Source of the DNA: an uncultured Acidobacteriia bacterium
GTDB lineage: Bacteria; Acidobacteriota; Terriglobia; Bryobacterales; Bryobacteraceae
DNA length: 64,000 nt
Assembly: GCA_903875575.1 (NCBI GenBank)
Contig: CAIQWJ010000024.1
Span: forward strand, 124,001 to 188,000
Direction of reading: 5' to 3'
The notes beneath the pieces were generated by a model. It ran no database searches. It saw nothing but the letters and a program-made list of their open reading frames with translations, and was not told the DNA's origin. The position numbers and the translations under genes are program-made. Each line of letters opens with the position of its first letter. Position 1 is the first letter of the stretch. This document shows positions 5,484 to 16,642 of the stretch, one piece after another.

Positions 5484-5933
5484 ATGCCGCTTTCCGATAC
5501 GATTCACGCCGTTCTTTCGCGGAAGGGTTGGGGGATCTACTCCGCCGCACCACACGTTTCCGTCTACAACGCCGTCCAGATGATGGCCGATAAAGACATC
5601 GGTGCTCTCGCCATCATCGGCCCCGACCGCCTGCTCGGCATCTTCTCCGAACGCGACTACGCCCGCAAAATCATCCTTCTGGGCCGATCGTCAAAGGACA
5701 CTACCGTTGGCGAAGTCATGTCGCACCCGGCAACCTCGGTAACTCCTGACGACACAGTGGCCGACTGCCTCCGTATGATGAACACCTACCGTCTGCGTCA
5801 CCTGGTCGTCGTCGAAGGCGGCCGCCCGGTCGGCATGGTCTCCATCGGCGATCTCACCAACTGGATCATGGCTGCGCAGGAGGACATGATCGTCCACCTC
5901 CACGGCTACATCAGTGGGAATTATCTGGGCTAA
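5484..5933 (+). CDS. tandem CBS-domain protein
   Basis: 149-residue protein made almost only of two CBS domains (about residues 12-66 and 76-132), the fold that senses adenine nucleotides or similar ligands. Motifs such as DKDIGALAI, GIFSERDYARK and MSHPATSVTPDDTV are typical. It has a strong SD (AGGAGG at 5474-5479). Stand-alone CBS pairs may regulate a partner enzyme; korAB upstream is a possible but unproven one, 213 bases away. A truncated, decayed copy of this gene lies about 11 kb downstream at 16391, on the same strand. Confidence 0.88.
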   Translation: MPLSDTIHAVLSRKGWGIYSAAPHVSVYNAVQMMADKDIGALAIIGPDRLLGIFSERDYARKIILLGRSSKDTTVGEVMSHPATSVTPDDTVADCLRMMNTYRLRHLVVVEGGRPVGMVSIGDLTNWIMAAQEDMIVHLHGYISGNYLG

Positions 5934-5948
5934 CCGCGCGCCTGGCGT

Positions 5949-7400
5949 TCATCCGAGGCCGAGGTTTCGCACGATCTGCTGAAACCGGGCGTCCGAATGC
6001 AGCGGTTCAAACACCGGGTCCACCTTGACGAACAGAATGTAATAGGGTCGGCTTACCGCCGCCTTCTGCAGATCCGCCATAGCCAAATCTCGTTCGTCGC
6101 GCACCATGTGCCAGACCGCACGTTCGTAGTTATAAGTTGGATTGTCGGCATTCACCGCAATGAGACGTCCGAACGTATCCTGCGGATTTGATCGCCAGAC
6201 ACGGTCGATCCACGCTTCACGCGCCTCATCGGCCCATCCCATCCAGAATGCAGTCGCCGCTCCGCGATCATCCACATACTCGCGATACATGTGCTTCATC
6301 AAATGCGCGCGGGAGCGCCAGTCGATCGCAGGCTCCGAACGGGGATTTATCGCGACGGCCCTGTCCGCGAGCGCAATCGCGTCGTCATAGCGTTTCAGGA
6401 AATACAGTATGCCTGCCTTGTCCGCCAGCGGCCCACTTTCCACCGGAGCCAGCCGAATCGCCTCGTCGATCTCCCGAAGACCCTGGTCTGGATGCCCCAT
6501 CGCAGTGTGATACTGGGCAAGCCAAACGCGGTAGCGCCACACGCTGGGCTCCAGTGTCACAGCTTTGGCCAGCGTTGCCTCTGCCTCCTGGATTTTAAAA
6601 TCCCGAGTACCCAGAACGTACCCCAGCGCCCCCTGGCACCGGCCGCAGTCCGGGTCCCGCCGCACGGCTTCGCGGGCCAGTTGCTGAAAGGTCGACATTT
6701 CCTGACCGGCCACATTGATGATGGGTATCTTCGCTCCACCCCCGAAACGAGCGGAAGCCTCGGCCAGGCCCGCCAGCGCCAGCGCCGAACCCGGTTCCAG
6801 GCTGAGAGCCGAGCGGAATAATTCGTTGGCCTGCGCCAGATGAGGCTCAGAGGCCCGATCAATCAGACTGTACGCTTCAGCGCAGATCGCGGCCACACGC
6901 TCCCCGCGCCGCCAGTGAGACGTACCCCAAATCCCCCCCACGGCGATTGCAACCGCGAGAACACCTGCACCAATCCATCCGATTCGCGATCTTCCGGCCA
7001 CTGGCTCAAAGGTCTTCGCGTCCACCGTGGAATCCGGCGTTACTGCAATATCCGCCGCCCCGCGCTCCGCAACAGAAACGCCCCTCACATCGCCCATCGC
7101 CAGCCGGTAGCCTCTTCCCTGTACAGTCTCCAGCGAATCCGGATCGATTCCCGCGTCTTCGAACAACTTGCGAATTTCAAATACCAGTTGATGAAGAGAC
7201 CCGCTTGAAATCGCCGCCCTGCCCGGCCATACCTGTGCCTGAATTGCGGCACGATCCACCGCCTGCCCCGGCTCCGCCAGCAGCGCCGCCAGTAGTGCCG
7301 CCTGGCGTGGCGTCAGCGCCTGGGCTCCTGAGGGCCCCCGCAATTCCCGCCGTTCCAGGTCCAGTTCTCCGCCAATGAGCAGTATGGTTCTATCAGACAT
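5949..7400 (-). CDS. CadC-like transmembrane winged-helix regulator with TPR domain
   Basis: 483 residues. Residues 1 to about 103 form an OmpR/PhoB-type winged-helix DNA-binding domain (LTPRQAALLAALL ... ETVQGRGYRL). A single membrane segment lies at about 140-165, and the rest is a predicted periplasmic TPR array (for example FRSALSLEPGSALALAGLAEA). This is the CadC/ToxR topology: direct membrane-bound one-component sensing. It is divergent from the PEP-CTERM/collagen operon at 7529, with a shared 128-base promoter region, so it is the best candidate regulator of that operon; this is inference from position. Confidence 0.82.
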   Translation of the reverse strand: MSDRTILLIGGELDLERRELRGPSGAQALTPRQAALLAALLAEPGQAVDRAAIQAQVWPGRAAISSGSLHQLVFEIRKLFEDAGIDPDSLETVQGRGYRLAMGDVRGVSVAERGAADIAVTPDSTVDAKTFEPVAGRSRIGWIGAGVLAVAIAVGGIWGTSHWRRGERVAAICAEAYSLIDRASEPHLAQANELFRSALSLEPGSALALAGLAEASARFGGGAKIPIINVAGQEMSTFQQLAREAVRRDPDCGRCQGALGYVLGTRDFKIQEAEATLAKAVTLEPSVWRYRVWLAQYHTAMGHPDQGLREIDEAIRLAPVESGPLADKAGILYFLKRYDDAIALADRAVAINPRSEPAIDWRSRAHLMKHMYREYVDDRGAATAFWMGWADEAREAWIDRVWRSNPQDTFGRLIAVNADNPTYNYERAVWHMVRDERDLAMADLQKAAVSRPYYILFVKVDPVFEPLHSDARFQQIVRNLGLG

Positions 7401-7441
7401 AGGTGCGCGGATATTTCTTTATCATTTAGTTACACCGCAGT

Positions 7442-7470
7442 CTCAAGTCGTTTTGTATCAGTTGCTTGAG
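7442..7470. promoter_or_regulatory. inverted repeat CTCAAG-N17-CTTGAG in divergent promoter region
   Basis: CTCAAG (7442-7447) and CTTGAG (7465-7470) form a perfect six-base inverted repeat with centres 23 bases apart, about two helical turns. It lies between the divergent starts of the CadC-like regulator (7400) and the PEP-CTERM operon (7529), so it could be an operator for that regulator. Only one copy was seen and short matches arise by chance. Confidence 0.3.
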
Positions 7471-7528
7471 TACGCCTAAGATGTCTCAGGAGAATTTGAG
7501 ATGACAGTCTGGCCGGGCCGGCAGCATA

Positions 7529-8248
7529 ATGGCGATTCGCGCCCCCATGCCCAACAGCCGCCTCGCCCGCCTTGCAGGTTCAATCTGTTTACTTCTGGTC
7601 GCGCCGGTCGTCGCACTGGCTGGCAGCTTCTCATTTGTCGGCAACTTCACAAGCGACGATCAGGTGGAATTCTGGAATTTTTCCGTCTCCTCGGCAATCT
7701 CCATGACCGCTCGTACCTGGTCGTTTGCGGGGGGTACGAATGCACTCGGAGCGCCCATTCCAGGAGGAGGCTTTGCGCCCGTCCTTTCCCTATTTGATTC
7801 CACCGGAATTCTGATCGCCTCCGATCTCGAAGACAGTTCCGGCACTTGCCTGTCACGCGCCACCGACTCTCCCACCGGGGCCTGTTGGGATGCCATCCTG
7901 GACCAGCCCCTGGCAATTGGAAGTTATACCCTGGCACTTTCGGAGGACGACAACACCCCTGTCGGCCCCTCGCTGACGGATGGATTCTCCCAAGCCGGAC
8001 AGGGTAACTTTACCGGCCCAAACTTCGGGCCAGGCATCGGTTCTTTCATCATGAAAGGCTTCTTCCAGCGCTCGAACTTCTACGCCGTGGACCTGACCTT
8101 CGTTGATGGAGCCGCCCCCGGACCGTTGCCTGACTCCAGTGCGCCGGAACCTGGCACCGCATCACTTTGGGCCGCAGGCCTGCTGACCTTTCTGGCGCTT
8201 CGCAGACCAAACGCTTTTCGAAAATCCCTGAGAAGGTCTGACCTGTGA
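7529..8248 (+). CDS. PEP-CTERM exported protein, DVUA0089-like
   Basis: 239 residues: signal peptide (residues 1 to about 31), a beta-rich domain resembling the DVUA0089 family of PEP-CTERM proteins, and a C-terminal sorting signal at about 205-227 with PEP, a hydrophobic helix and a final Arg-Arg. Such proteins are cleaved by an exosortase and linked to extracellular polysaccharide or the cell surface. It is the first gene of a four-gene coupled unit: its TGA overlaps the GTG of the first collagen-like gene. The start is uncertain. ATG 7529 has a weak SD, whereas a strong SD (AGGAG, 7488-7492) precedes an out-of-frame ATG at 7501; ATG 7547 is another option. Confidence 0.8.
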
Positions 8249-10910
8249 CCGGAGGTCTTTCACCTTTGCTCCGTCGCCTCCTCCTGCTTTCAATCATCTT
8301 GCTCCCTGCGCTCGCCCATGCGGGCGACGCACCGCTGACAGGCGATACCTTTATCAACACAGCTCAGCCCGGCGTCAATTCCGGAGCCATCGCCAACCTC
8401 AATGTTGGTTTGGGAAATACCGCGTTGCTTCAGTTCGATCTGAACGCCCTCCCGACGGGCACCACCGGGGCTTCCGTCGCAAAGGCAACTCTGGTGGTCT
8501 TCGTCAATAACATTGTCGGCTCTGGCTTCCTTGACGTGAACCAGGTGAATTCCGTCTGGAATGAATCCACCGTCACCGCCGCCACGGGACCTCTGTTGGG
8601 AGGGTTCGCCGCCGTCAACGGCTCCGTGACCCAGAGCAAAATCTACGTTTCGCTCGACGTCACCACGCTGGTCAGGAACTGGCTGGACGGTTCGGTCGCC
8701 AACAACGGCCTGGCCGTTACCTCCAAGTCGAATGGCTTCCAGGCATTCCTCGACAGCAAGGAAAACACGCAGACCAGTCACGCGCCCCGGCTCACACTCG
8801 AGCTCTACGGGCCTGCCGGCCCGGATGGGAGCCGGGGACTGACTGGCGGGCCGGGGAACGTCGGCCCCTCCGGAGTCACAGGCCTGTCCGGCCCCACCGG
8901 TGCCACGGGGCCAACCGGCAATGACGGAGCACCAGGCTTAGTAGGCAACACCGGAGCAACCGGTGCGGCCGGGGCCCCGGGTCCCAACGGCGGCGCAGGT
9001 AATACGGGCAACACAGGCCAAACCGGACCGCGCGGTGCGAACGGCCCTCCGGGTTCAACCGGCTTCAACGGTGCCCCTGGACTGGCAGGCATAACAGGCA
9101 GCAAAGGGCAGACCGGAGCCACCGGATCCACCGGCAACACGGGTTCCACCGGGTTTACCGGTGTGACCGGCATCACCGGTATCACCGGGCCAGCCGGCAG
9201 CACGGGAGCCAATGGTGCCACGGGCGCAACCGGGACCACCGGAAACACCGGGCTTACCGGAAACACCGGCGCAACAGGAGCGACAGGTGCCAATGGGGCC
9301 ACGGGTGCCAGCCCGATCGGTGCCACCGGCGCCCGGGGTGCCACCGGTAATACCGGCACCAATGGGAACACGGGCGCGACCGGAGCCACCGGCTCCGTCG
9401 GCACCACTGGAGCAACCGGCATCTCCGGATCTCCTGGAGATACGGGCTCCACCGGAGCCACTGGCAGCACAGGCAGTTCCGGCAGCACCGGAGCCACAGG
9501 CCAGACTGGCGTAGCCGGCACACCAGGCCAGACCGGGCAGACCGGCGCGACCGGTGCCACCGGAGCCACCGGAATATCGCCAACCGGAGCAACCGGTGCC
9601 CTCGGCGCAACCGGAGCCACGGGCGCCACCGGTGCCGCGGGGCAAAACGGCGCCACCGGTGCCACCGGAACCTCCGGCGCAACCGGAGCCACCGGCACCG
9701 CGGGAGTGCCCGGCTTGACGGGCAATACAGGAGTGACGGGTTCAACAGGTGCCAACGGTCGAACTGGATCGACAGGCGTCACCGGGGCCACCGGGGTTGC
9801 GGGTGTCACCGGCGCTACCGGCTCCACCGGTGCCACCGGTGCCAGCCCGGCGGGCCCAACCGGGGCCACCGGTGCCAGCCCCACAGGGGCAACCGGCGCA
9901 ACAGGAGCAACGGGTGCAACTGGCGTTGGTGCCACCGGTCCGACCGGGCCGACCGGCACTGCGGGCGCGACCGGATCAACGGGACTCAACACACTGCAGA
10001 TCGGAATTCTGCGTTGGTATGGCGCGATGCAGCCGCCCCCGATTGTGAGTTTCGCTGCCGCCCGAGCCGCCGCGAAATGGCTGATCACGCCACTCCGCGG
10101 GGCAAACGGCGGCTTGTCCGCCGTGGGCGCTGTGGCCGCCGCTTTTGACGGAGCCGATATCTGGATTGCGGGCTCGAGTCTCACCCGGCGGCGTGCCAGC
10201 GACGGAGCCTTACTGGAAACGTATTTTCCGGGCGGTGTACCAACCGGCATCGCCTATGACGGAGCCAACATCTGGCTCACAAGGAACACTGCGACTGGCG
10301 GGGTGGTCAAGTTGCGGGCCAGCGACGGCTCACTGCTCACAACTTTCTCGTCCGGAGGCATCCCGGATGGCATTGCCTTTGACGGGACCAACGTCTGGAT
10401 TGCCAATTCCAATACCCATTCAGTGACGGGTATCCGTGCCTCCGACGGCCTCGTTCAGGGACCTTTTTCTGTTGGCAACAGCCCTTCCGCGCTGGCCTTC
10501 GATGGTACTTCCATCTGGGTTGCCAATTCGGCCGATGCCACGGTAAAACGACTGACTGCATCGGGTTCCGTTGCGGGCACTTTCCCTGTGGGGTCGCAAC
10601 CCTCCGCCCTGGCCTTCGATGGCAGTTCCATCTGGGTTGCCAACTCGGGAGACAATACCGTCACCCGGCTGCGGACCAGCGATGGCGCACTCCTTGGTAC
10701 TTTTTCCGTTGGTACGCGCCCGAAAGGCGTCGTCTTCGACGGCGTGAACATTTGGGTTACCAATTCCCTCGATAACTCCGTCACGAAACTGCGTGCTGAC
10801 GATGGCGCACTGCTCGGCACCTATTCCGTCGGCAGAAGCCCGCTCGGGGCCGCGTTCGATGGAGCCAACATCTGGGTGACCAATAACGGCGACGGGACGG
10901 TGAGCAAACT

Positions 10911-10914
<4 letters not shown>
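8245..10914 (+). CDS. collagen-like protein with DNRLRE and seven-blade propeller-type domains (paralogue 1)
   Basis: 889 residues from a GTG overlapping the upstream stop (GTGA). Order: signal peptide (1 to about 27), a DNRLRE-like domain (about 28-187: [10 protein letters not shown] ... LVRNWLDG ... [15 protein letters not shown]), a collagen-like Gly-X-Thr tract (189 to about 581) with a few breaks such as GASPIG, and a C-terminal domain of exactly seven FDG-x2-IW(V/I) units suggesting a seven-bladed propeller. No cell-wall anchor is visible after the propeller. It is likely a secreted or surface fibre: DNRLRE is found in extracellular proteins and Gly-X-Thr repeats form stable trimers in spore and cell-surface collagens. 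Overlaps paralogue 2 by ATGA. Confidence 0.88.
8809..9990 (+). repeat. collagen-like Gly-X-Y coding tract 1
   Basis: About 391 codons of Gly-X-Y, mostly Gly-X-Thr and Gly-Ala-Thr, encoded by degenerate nine-base units (GGN GCN ACN). Interruptions include GASPIG, GISPTG, GASPAG and GVG. The reverse strand shows long proline/valine ORFs that are artefacts of this composition. Confidence 0.9.
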
Positions 10915-13522
<2,608 letters not shown>

Positions 13523-13526
<4 letters not shown>

Positions 13527-16240
13527 GAATCATCTGCCCCAACACCAGATCCATCGCCCATGCCATTCCCGCACAACTGCTCCGGCTGCTGCCGCTCGCC
13601 CTCGTCGGCGCTGGCCTCGCTCACGCACAGGAAGCCACTCTCGCGGCCGACACCACCATCAATTCCGGCAACCCCACCGTCAACTTCGCAGCTTCCACGA
13701 ATCTGAACATCGGCGGAGGCAACTCAGCCCTTCTCCAGTTCGATCTCACTTCCCTGCCCGCGGGCCTGACCGCCAGTCAGATCGCCAGAGCCAGTCTGAT
13801 CGTCTATGTCAACGGAGTCGGCGCCGCTGGCGCCGTCTCCGTCCAGCAGGTGACCAGCCATTGGACCGAAACGGGTGTGACCTTTGCCAATGCTCCGTCA
13901 GTGGGAACGTTTGTCGCCCAGAATGTCCCGGTCACGGCACGGGCATACCTGTCGGTGAACATGACCGCCCTTGTGAAAAGCTGGGTCAACGGGTTTTCGC
14001 AAAACAACGGCGTCAGAATCACCCCGAGCGCGTCGGCCCCCTCCACTCTTGCCTTTCTCGACAGCCGGGAGAACACGCAAACCAGCCACCCCGCCCGCCT
14101 TCAGATCGACCTTGTCGGCGTCATCGGCAGCACTGGCCCCACCGGCCCCGCCGGTCCCAACGGGCCCAACGGACCGACAGGCATTACCGGCGCAAGAGGC
14201 AATACCGGACTGACCGGTTTCACAGGTGCCACCGGGCCAACCGGACCCAGGGGACCCACGGGAGCCACCGGCCAGACCGGGGCAACTGGCGCAACAGGCA
14301 TCTCGGGCGCGACCGGAGCCACCGGTAACACCGGCCCAACCGGGGCCACCGGTGCAGTCGGCGCGACCGGGCCGGCAGGTGCCACAGGGCAGACAGGAGC
14401 AACCGGCCAAACAGGAGCCGCGGGAGCCACCGGATCACAGGGCTCCGGTGGCGCCACCGGAGCCACCGGAAATACCGGCGCAGCCGGAGCAACTGGCACC
14501 ACCGGTGCCACGGGGCCAACCGGAGCGGCAGGTGCCACAGGTGCCGCTGGCTCAACAGGAACTGCCGGTGCCACGGGAGCAGCCGGAACGACCGGTTCCA
14601 CCGGTGCAACCGGTGCGGCAGGAGCCACCGGTGCCACCGGTGCAACGGGTACCGCCGGAGCCACCGGTTCCACAGGAGCGACTGGTAGCACGGGCGCGGT
14701 CGGAGCAACTGGATCCCCCGGTGTCACCGGTGCCACCGGACAGAAGGGCGGGACGGGTGCGACCGGGAACTCAGGCGCGACCGGAGCGAGGGGCGCCACC
14801 GGGTCGACCGGAAGTCCTGGAGCGACCGGATCAACCGGCAACACAGGCGCTGCCGGATCAACCGGTGCCACCGGAACCACGGGCGCACCCGGGGCCACCG
14901 GCACCACCGGCGCGACGGGATCGACCGGCGCACCCGGTGCCACCGGCACCACTGGTACCACGGGCGGCACCGGCTTGAAAGGCGCGTCAGGGGCGACCGG
15001 AGCGCCGGGCAATACCGGAGCCACGGGGGCAACTGGCGCCAATGGTGCCACAGGTACCGCCGGCACCGCAGGAATCGATGGCAGTGCAGGAGCAACCGGA
15101 AACACTGGCGCAACCGGCGCAACCGGAGCCTCAGGTGCAACGGGAATCACCGGAACCGCGGGGCCAACCGGGGTCACCGGACCCACGGGCACTCCGGGTG
15201 CAACTGGCCTGACAGGAGCCACTGGTGCCACCGGCGCACCGGGTTTCGCCGCCACGGGACCCACCGGGGCCCAGGGACTCGCCGGAACCACCGGGTTAAC
15301 CGGTCCCAGCGTCTTCGCCCTCGCCACTCTCCACTGGTTTGTCAACAACACGAACAGCTTTCCGGTCGGGACTTCGCCCACAGGCGTCGCCTTTGATGGA
15401 GCCAGCATCTGGGTGGCAAATTCCGGCAACAACACCGTCACAAAACTGGGCTCCATCGACGGCGTCCTGTTGGGCACCTTCAGCACCGTACCAGCCGGCG
15501 GTGGCGGCGGTGCCGCAGCCATCGCACATCTCACGGCTCATCCTGCGCCCCCGGCGAATAACCCGCAGACCATTGCGTTTGACGGACTCAACTTGTGGGT
15601 CGTCAATACCAGTGGCGGCAGCCTGGCGAAGATTCAGGCGAGCGATGGCACATTGCTCGGCACCTTCCTCGTTGGCAGTTCACCCACCGCCGTCGCTTTC
15701 GATGGCGTCAACATCTGGGTATCGAATTCCGGCAGTAACACCGTCACTGTCCTGCTCGCCAGCGATGGCAGTTTCGTCAGAAATATCAGTGTCGGAACAT
15801 CCCCGCAAGGTCTGGCGTTTGACGGAACAAAAATGTGGGTGGCCAATTCGGGCGACAACACTGTCAGCATGATTCAACCCTCCAGCGGCGCAATCACGGG
15901 AACCTTCGCCGTCGGTTTGCAGCCCGACGGTCTGGCCTTCGATGGCGCGAACATCTGGGTCACGAACTATGGCGATAACAGCGTGTCCGAACTCAGCGCC
16001 GCCGATGGCACTGCCGCCGGGATATTCTCAGTGGGCAGGCACCCGCTGGGAATCGCTTTCGACGGCTCCAGCATGTGGATCGGCAACTCCGAAGACAACA
16101 CCGTGACGCGGCTGCGCGCCATGGACGGCGCACTGCAGGGAACGGTGTCCGGAGACACCGCACCTCAGGGAGTTGCTTTCGACGGAGTTTCCACCTGGGT
16201 CGTCAACGGCGGCACCTCCGGCGCCGTTTCAAAGCACTGA
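13523..16240 (+). CDS. collagen-like protein with DNRLRE and seven-blade propeller-type domains (paralogue 3)
   Basis: 905 residues from the ATG at 13523, which overlaps the stop of paralogue 2 (ATGA); an open frame extends further upstream but would skip the signal peptide. Order: signal peptide (1 to about 34), DNRLRE-like domain (about 35-200), Gly-X-Thr tract (202 to about 595), and seven FDG-x2-(I/M/L/T)W units (605-905). A Gly/Ala/His/Pro-rich insert lies between blades 1 and 2 (about 650-670). Last gene of the coupled unit; no terminator was recognised after it, and the next 150 bases lead to a decayed CBS gene copy. Confidence 0.88.
14126..15310 (+). repeat. collagen-like Gly-X-Y coding tract 3
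   Basis: About 392 codons of Gly-X-Y, nearly all Gly-Ala-Thr/Gly-X-Thr and less interrupted than tract 1. Prone to slippage and to misassembly because of near-identical nine-base units. Confidence 0.88.
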
Positions 16241-16390
16241 GTTCCAGTCGATCCCCCTGCAGCCGACTTAGCAATTCCTTCGTATCCTTAGATCGAAACT
16301 TCCGGATCTTCCCGCTGCGTCGCCAGTCTCCGCGCCTGCACTTCGGGACTCACTTGACCCCGTCCATCACCGCCACTCCCGCCAGCCGGG

Positions 16391-16601
16391 CCACACGTTT
16401 CCGTCTGCAAAGCCGCACAAATGGCCGTCAAAGACACTGGTGCCATCATCGGCCCCGGACGTCTGTTCGGCATCTTCCCTGAATACAACTACGCCCGCAA
16501 AATCATCCTCATGGGACGTTCCTCAATAGACACCACCGTCGCCGAAGTCATGTCCCACCCGACAAGCTCCGTCACTCCAGACGACACCGCGGCCGACTGC
16601 C
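16391..16601 (+). pseudogene. truncated, decayed copy of the CBS-domain gene
   Basis: Translation gives HVSV, then QM-VKD-TGAIIG, GIFPEYNYARKIILMGRSS and MSHPTSSVTPDDTAADCL, closely matching residues about 25-97 of the CBS protein at 5484. Similarity at DNA level begins abruptly at CCACACGTTTCCGTC and ends at GCCGACTGCC. The first strand and most of the second CBS domain are missing, and a few codons in the GALAIIG region are deleted. The gap 16241-16694 otherwise holds nothing recognisable. It is on the same strand as the intact gene, so the two copies bracket the regulator/collagen island. Confidence 0.75.
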
Positions 16602-16642
16602 TTCTGGCCGGGACGCGCCCTCACCGGAGATCACGGAGAAGA

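Follow-up and report, generated by a model that had tools for sequence, protein, structure and literature searches.

An acidobacterial operon encoding a PEP-CTERM-like protein and three collagen-propeller proteins, candidate surface adhesins

Locus description

The sequence described here, called the window throughout, is a stretch of 64,000 nucleotides from an uncultured Acidobacteriia bacterium of the Bryobacteraceae (GenBank assembly GCA_903875575.1, contig CAIQWJ010000024.1, positions 124,001 to 188,000 of the forward strand). It contains an operon of four overlapping genes on the plus strand (7529-16240) and a divergent regulator gene. The first gene of the operon encodes a member of the DVUA0089 family whose tail is PEP-CTERM-like, and the other three encode C1, C2 and C3, each of which combines a DNRLRE domain, a long collagen-like region and a seven-unit propeller. 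Among DVUA0089/DNRLRE-collagen modules the operon is an extreme case, and its products are, on balance, probably exosortase-linked surface adhesins in which collagen stalks bear diversified heads. Its features are as follows.

5949-7400, minus strand: regulator with a Trans_reg_C winged helix and TPRs, CadC/HilA-like layout (profile match)
7401-7528, no strand: divergent intergenic region between the regulator and the operon
7529-8248, plus strand: DVUA0089-family protein with PEP-CTERM-like tail, 239 amino acids (NF038127 match; tail by eye)
8245-8248, plus strand: GTGA stop/start overlap of the PEP-CTERM-like gene and C1 (sequence)
8245-10914, plus strand: C1, 889 amino acids; signal-peptide-like start, DNRLRE 32-185, collagen 189-582, linker ILRWY, 7-unit propeller
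10911-10914, plus strand: ATGA stop/start overlap of C1 and C2 (sequence)
10911-13526, plus strand: C2, 871 amino acids; signal-peptide-like start, DNRLRE, collagen 196-585, linker LLRWY, 7-unit propeller
13523-13526, plus strand: ATGA stop/start overlap of C2 and C3 (sequence)
13523-16240, plus strand: C3, 905 amino acids; signal-peptide-like start, DNRLRE, collagen 199-596, linker TLHWF helix, 7-bladed propeller

An initial annotation, made by a model from the sequence alone, had described four coupled genes and a divergent regulator, and our checks of open reading frames, profiles and junctions agreed with it, coordinates included. The GTGA and ATGA overlaps on which it based the coupling are real; the equimolar synthesis that it drew from them would be one possible consequence. 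The signal-peptide-like starts of C1-C3 were recognised by eye. An earlier ATG is available for C3 at 13361 in the open reading frame list, and the signal-peptide-like start follows the ATG at 13523.

Domain composition and predicted structures

Profile searches matched C1-C3 to the DNRLRE/CBM96 family at 48.8-65.7 bits (cut-off 26) and to the collagen family PF01391 at 170-194 bits. The collagen-like spans measure 394, 390 and 398 residues in C1, C2 and C3, corresponding to 128, 130 and 132 triplets, and threonine occupies the Y position in 81 of 128, 93 of 130 and 88 of 132 of them. The repeat is interrupted five times in C1, each time by two residues, never in C2 and once in C3. Seven DG...W repeats make up the C-terminal part of each protein, so that the architecture given in the initial annotation, a DNRLRE-like domain, roughly 390 collagen-like residues and a seven-unit propeller, holds for all three. 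The domain matches are not due to chance, because the profiles score well beyond their curated cut-offs and the C3 propeller is modelled with confidence.

The C3 model, which AlphaFold2 produced for the linker and propeller from 56 sequences, reached a predicted local distance difference test score (pLDDT) of 92.4 and a predicted template modelling score (pTM) of 0.88. It has 28 strands in seven blades of four, and the N-terminal strand completes the last blade and closes the ring, as expected from the propeller fold that the initial annotation had proposed. For C3 the closed seven-bladed ring is thus a prediction, and for C1 and C2 it is indicated by the seven DG...W repeats only. The nearest solved structure found by Foldseek was 1l0q, a YVTN propeller of an archaeal surface-layer protein (9.4e-19), which was also the best match in a sequence search of the PDB with the propeller (1.6e-39). 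Unlike the archaeal propellers, that of the window is joined to collagen through an LxxALLRWYxxN-type helix. In the model of C3 a helix at 4-14 covers this LxxALLRWY-type linker motif at lower confidence (64-69). Reading the helix as a collagen-specific neck is doubtful, given this confidence and the presence of the motif in propeller-only proteins.

Sequence variation among the 56 propellers was concentrated in the top-face loops (DA and BC, in what we take to be the usual naming), at 2.39 bits versus 0.90 in the bottom-face loops. Between them, C1, C2 and C3 differ at 36 of 44 top-loop positions and 21 of 50 bottom-loop positions. In the modelled fold, the variability of the top face is consistent with a binding surface that is diversifying.

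The DNRLRE domain of C3, run through AlphaFold2 with seven sequences, was predicted at a pLDDT of 92.0. Foldseek matched the model to a chondroitin-sulfate-binding module, 8wab (2.7e-9), and to the alginate-binding 7vbo, the founder of CBM96 (5.6e-8). A PDB sequence search with the DNRLRE profile returned chance-level matches only. The DNRLRE domain received its name in PMC2447325, and CBM96 is described in the available portion of PMC9971899. C1-C3 resemble CBM96 in a profile score above the cut-off and, by the model of C3, in predicted fold. The basic groove that binds alginate in CBM96, formed by Lys10, 22, 25, 27 and 31 and Arg36 according to the same portion of PMC9971899, has no obvious counterpart in the window proteins: by residue counting only, the first 36 residues of the domain contain neither lysine nor arginine in C1 and C3 and a single lysine in C2.

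In general layout C1-C3 are similar to the collagen-like proteins Scl1/Scl2, BclA and Lcl, for which PMC8968730, as far as its available text goes, gives an N-terminal domain, a long Gly-X-Y region and a C-terminal head, and they share the threonine-rich Y position. They differ from these proteins in having a propeller head, an exosortase-linked partner and tandem chains of matched length. C1-C3 end in their propellers, with no sorting signal on these collagen partners, and no LPxTG motif was found in them; against the Scl/Lcl equivalog models they scored 125-170 bits, short of the cut-offs of 325-500. By analogy with BclA, described as glycosylated in the same text, we would guess that the threonine-rich repeat is glycosylated too.

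The PEP-CTERM-like protein and the exosortase

The first protein of the operon matched the NF038127 DVUA0089 family at 120.7 bits (6.9e-35). Its tail, recognised by eye, consists of a PEP motif, a hydrophobic stretch and a basic end; the DVUA0089 relatives that are paired with DNRLRE genes have plainer tails. The initial annotation had named the presence of an exosortase in the genome as a check on its reading, and the source genome (G000, 5.98 Mb) does encode one next to an EpsI-family protein. The exosortase, on contig C72, gave a match of 243 bits and scored 184.9 bits against TIGR02602 (cut-off 105.55), and the EpsI protein belongs to TIGR02914. The window resembles a PEP-CTERM/exosortase system in the tail of its first protein, as judged by eye, and in the two genomic families, and is unlike one in that the collagen partners end in propellers and show no visible sorting signal. 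From these sequences, the DVUA0089 protein probably serves as an exosortase substrate that partners or anchors the collagen chains.

The DVUA0089/DNRLRE-collagen module

DNRLRE matches were found in 10 of 19 genomes of the genus, 14 of them in G000. Four contigs of G000 (C40, C94, C78 and C72; loci L027, L033, L035 and L037) end inside collagen-coding repeats, so its number of collagen genes is uncertain. Among 237 genomes of the family, DVUA0089 matches occur at 89 places in 63 genomes and DNRLRE matches at 128 places in 49 genomes. At 34 of the 89 places, in 29 genomes, a DVUA0089 match lies within 1.4 kb of a DNRLRE match, where about 0.07 would be expected by chance, assuming 5,500 genes per genome. 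The DVUA0089 gene is upstream and co-directional in 28 of these pairs, the DNRLRE gene comes first in three co-directional pairs, and three pairs are divergent. The initial annotation had linked a PEP-CTERM protein to the collagen genes at this one locus, and the link is far more general than it claimed. Scanning all 34 paired loci, we found collagen after the DNRLRE domain in 32, and at one of the others (L370) the gene is a stub at a contig end. The other 33 paired loci yielded no propeller, though in at least seven of them a contig end removes the head. The heads vary, and one is a collar domain (L304). The conserved unit is a PEP-CTERM-like partner with a DNRLRE-collagen protein, and the propeller head is a variation of this lineage, since 32 of the 34 pairs show collagen and none of the other 33 shows a propeller. 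The DNRLRE domain closest to that of C3 is in a single-gene module in G204 (53% identity).

The collar domain raises the alternative that the module encodes fibres of a phage-tail or tailocin type instead of cell-surface stalks. A phage tail collar domain is fused to DNRLRE-collagen in L304, and a collar-domain gene follows a DVUA0089/DNRLRE pair in G026 (L319). Against this stand the signal-peptide-like starts of C1-C3, the pairing with a PEP-CTERM-like protein and the operon's neighbours, which include metabolic-looking and TonB-receptor-like genes (by eye) and a CBS-domain gene (profile), and we regard phage-type fibres, for which no phage library was searched, as very improbable.

A scan of named genomes with the window DVUA0089 protein gave no match. 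At six loci (L040, L308, L309, L312, L314 and L318) a DVUA0089 domain starts proteins of about 1,440-1,700 amino acids, and two of these (L308 and L309) are divergent from DNRLRE-collagen genes. In G155, seven DNRLRE genes, one of them cut, are grouped over about 20 kb (L373), and six have 7-14 collagen triplets. We found no description of the DVUA0089/DNRLRE-collagen module in the titles and abstract starts of open-licence literature, and the available portions of PMC3174227 and PMC3192720 had no bearing on it.

Propeller proteins in other genomes

A profile built from the three window linker-propellers was used to search genome sets that overlap one another. Matches were present in 69 of 121 relatives (at 1e-12), 21 of 237 family genomes (at 1e-30), 26 of 399 class genomes (at 1e-40) and 17 of 396 phylum genomes (at 1e-40); a further scan of named genomes gave, as its best, 78 loci in several phyla. 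The propeller may stand alone, follow collagen or other domains, be flanked by collagen at both ends, or follow a winged-helix-type start. Among the matches listed, collagen-propeller proteins are single or tandem and come from several phyla, and the full DNRLRE-collagen-propeller order is found in five genomes besides that of the window (G033, G438, G606, L221 and G009). The ordered combination, which the initial annotation did not recall from elsewhere, is therefore not unique to this operon. G033 has two such genes, both at contig ends, G606 has two in tandem, and the G009 protein continues into a long further C-terminus. Tandem arrays of collagen-propeller genes occur in G227 (four and three), G140 (three), G606 (two) and L216 (two), and tandem propeller genes without collagen in L238 (three) and in L073 and L211, which are the same contig (two). 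The initial annotation had also proposed that finding each gene alone elsewhere would speak against it, and this was found for collagen-propeller and propeller-only genes. In L172, from a metagenome-assembled genome labelled Deltaproteobacteria/Myxococcota, a frame of 640 amino acids that contains 87 collagen triplets shares 11 nucleotides with a collagen-propeller frame (5678-8864), possibly a further coupled collagen pair.

Tandem arrays and the composition of the collagen stalks

The operon of G142 has one PEP-CTERM-like gene and three DNRLRE-collagen genes with 42, 41 and 44 uninterrupted triplets, and that of G238 has three such genes with 42, 42 and 44 uninterrupted triplets and the PEP-CTERM-like gene last. 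At least two tandem DNRLRE-collagen genes are present in G276 and in G273, the second cut by the contig end in each; the first gene of G273 has 59 triplets. In a tree of 57 DNRLRE rows, the position-1 genes of these four genomes, from three genera, formed one clade (100/95) and the position-2 genes another (99/85), while the position-3 genes of G142 and G238, from two genera, formed a third (99/93). By this tree, chain identity appears to be conserved by position, which a complex of different chains would lead one to expect, as would three homotrimers expressed together. The chains of the window lie outside these clades, and their reading as orthologues of positions 1-3 is unsupported.

Chains within an array are of similar length. 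In the collagen-propeller set (six arrays), the median log length ratio was 0.025 for 17 within-array pairs and 0.62 for 658 non-array pairs whose propeller identities fell within the same range. The DNRLRE set (five arrays) gave 0.047 for 16 within-array pairs versus 0.69 for 1,068 pairs, and 0.047 again for 19 pairs when three neighbour pairs of G155 were added (eight arrays); the tandem DNRLRE genes of L373 count as arrays in the 19-pair test and not in the 16-pair test. None of 20,000 permutations reached the observed mean in any of the three tests. The collagen-propeller set left out 5'-cut proteins, those with fewer than 8 triplets, weak propellers and duplicates, and the DNRLRE set left out 23 genes that were short, truncated at a contig end or lacking a usable run. 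Exceptions to the matched lengths are one gene of G227 (23 triplets versus 15-16) and G198 (10-15).

Stalk length is otherwise labile: genes with 88-92% DNRLRE identity have 35, 78 and 83 triplets, values unaffected by two other members of this control, the frame-shifted L034 and L308, whose collagen is split by a longer gap, that inflate its spread. The collagen parts of the window chains are similar in register only at chance level (z 0.8-1.7), and z was below 3 in 15 of 17 array pairs; it was higher in L216 (7.8) and in one pair of L112 (3.3). That the equal stalks result from recent duplication or gene conversion was considered and set aside because in-register similarity is absent from those 15 pairs. 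Among six array pairs examined later, G238_2/3 reached z 4.0 and G142_1/2 a borderline 2.9, so some shared ancestry remains in these operons. Because length is otherwise labile and in-register similarity is at chance, the matched stalk length seems to have been kept up over time rather than copied recently, although the arrays are few and their pairs dependent.

The initial annotation proposed a heterotrimeric fibre, and two arrangements of the stalks can be compared. In the first, C1, C2 and C3 would form a single mixed triple helix through coupled translation, with three different propellers on each rod. The three window chains differ from one another, are encoded together and have matched lengths that persist despite the lost in-register similarity; the G142 and G238 operons set one PEP-CTERM-like gene beside three chains of matched, uninterrupted triplets, and chain position is conserved across genera. 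However, the interruptions of C1, C2 and C3 (five, none and one) do not match and would let the chains slip out of register unless tolerated, the window chains belong to none of the positional clades, and arrays comprise two, three or four genes. Single genes are also common: at 94 of the 128 DNRLRE places the contig holds no other, a count in which contig ends hide neighbours. Equal length could moreover be inherited or reflect an equal display height. What stands of the proposal is thus the matched stalk length in arrays and, in relatives, positional chain identity, and for the window we hold a mixed helix to be rather unlikely. We rate it higher for G142 and G238. The broader suggestion that such operons encode position-conserved chains A, B and C of matched length which, with an exosortase substrate, would build a natural mixed triple helix, the window being a larger form in which each chain has about 130 triplets and each rod three different propeller heads, we likewise hold to be rather unlikely.

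In the second arrangement, tandem duplication would have produced three separate homotrimeric adhesins in which only the diversification of the heads is selected and equal stalks are a matter of display height or a leftover of duplication. The prevalence of single DNRLRE places, the tandem propeller genes without collagen, the location of the variation on the top face of the propeller and the mismatched interruptions are all in keeping with it, and homotrimers are what PMC8968730, in its available text, describes for prokaryotic collagen-like proteins. Taken alone, it leaves unexplained both the positional orthology of tandem chains across genera and the equal lengths that outlast in-register similarity. 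Array sizes of two and four and the 94 of 128 solitary places suggest homotrimers as the default, and we lean toward separate homotrimers for the window.

Either arrangement is compatible with exosortase-linked surface adhesins, and several observations weigh against that interpretation or its parts. No PEP-CTERM model matched the window DVUA0089 protein at E 0.01. The DVUA0089 partner is not obligate, as 55 of its 89 places, some at contig ends, have no DNRLRE match within 1.4 kb, and at L371 the paired DNRLRE gene lacks a collagen run of six triplets. In the propeller tree, which has low support, the three window propellers do not group. The DNRLRE domains of C1-C3 do group together (79/86, not strong support), but a wider tree pairs C1 with C2 (86/69) and leaves C3 in an unresolved polytomy, which makes a duplication of all three in a single lineage tentative. 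Six, five and eight arrays underlie the three length tests, the window and G606 being common to all, and pairs drawn from the same array depend on one another.

Regulator and flanking genes

The regulator has a Trans_reg_C domain (51.6 bits), TPRs and a single hydrophobic segment, recognised by eye. It is like CadC and HilA in its N-terminal Trans_reg_C domain and one probable membrane segment, and unlike them in its TPR C-terminal part; the HilA and CadC equivalog cut-offs were not reached. A promoter-like match (10/12) lies at 7501-7530 on the plus strand, one of three such matches in the scanned region versus 1.7 expected. A single-sequence profile of the regulator found no match beside the related DNRLRE modules that were fetched, leaving a conserved regulator of the module unsupported; one TPR-region match lies near the propeller pair of L073 (2.4e-07). 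A regulatory tie to the module may nevertheless exist, judging from a winged helix-turn-helix-like gene after the relative L085 (by eye) and from winged-helix fusions in L145 and L146. In the latter (L145, 5942-7720; L146, 8681-10651) a winged-helix regulator domain, matched to Trans_reg_C by Pfam in L146 only and recognised by eye in L145, is fused to the same kind of DG-propeller as in the window; these are possible CadC-like sensors that borrow the adhesin head fold.

The regulator and operon are bracketed by a duplication of a CBS gene, intact on the left and truncated on the right.

5484-5933, plus strand: intact CBS-domain gene, left edge of the block (profile match and alignment to the copy)
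16385-16602, plus strand: truncated CBS gene copy, right edge of the block (alignment, 182 of 227 columns identical, 80%)

In the relative G012, a 6.5 kb contig carries korB and CBS, with neither the regulator nor the PEP-CTERM-like gene after CBS. Insertion of the block by way of the flanking CBS copy was considered: the duplication is real, but such an insertion is at most a possibility.

Conclusions

For exosortase-linked surface adhesins, the gene overlaps, domain order, exosortase and neighbour relation are read from sequence, and the propeller and CBM96 folds are predicted. The DVUA0089/PEP-CTERM-like protein would be exported and, after processing by the exosortase, retained at the cell surface. 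C1-C3 would be exported by their signal peptides and anchored by the N-terminal DNRLRE/CBM96-like beta-sandwich, with either surface polysaccharide or the PEP-CTERM-like partner as the point of attachment. Their approximately 130 Gly-X-Thr-rich triplets may form a trimeric rod, presumably about 110 nm long if fully extended, which a short predicted helix would link to the seven-bladed propeller, whose variable face may bind ligands. The divergent regulator may control the operon. Duplication at this locus is the probable origin of the tandem genes, whose heads have diversified, while the equal stalks could reflect selection for one shared triple helix or for heads at one height.

Animal collectins consist of a collagen stalk, a helical neck and globular binding heads, and C1q is built from three different chains. 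The window chains are similar in layout, with a collagen stalk and globular heads; the propeller head is unrelated, and mixed trimers are only proposed in the bacterial case. Co-assembly of C1-C3 is possible, and bacteria might make mixed-chain collagen as animals do. If three matched chains of one operon do co-assemble, the system would be a testable bacterial model of animal-like mixed-chain collagen assembly. To our knowledge the functions of PEP-CTERM-type families are mostly unknown, and the module proposes a partner for one of them. The collagen stalks of these bacteria carry exchangeable heads, among them propellers, a collar domain and other small domains.

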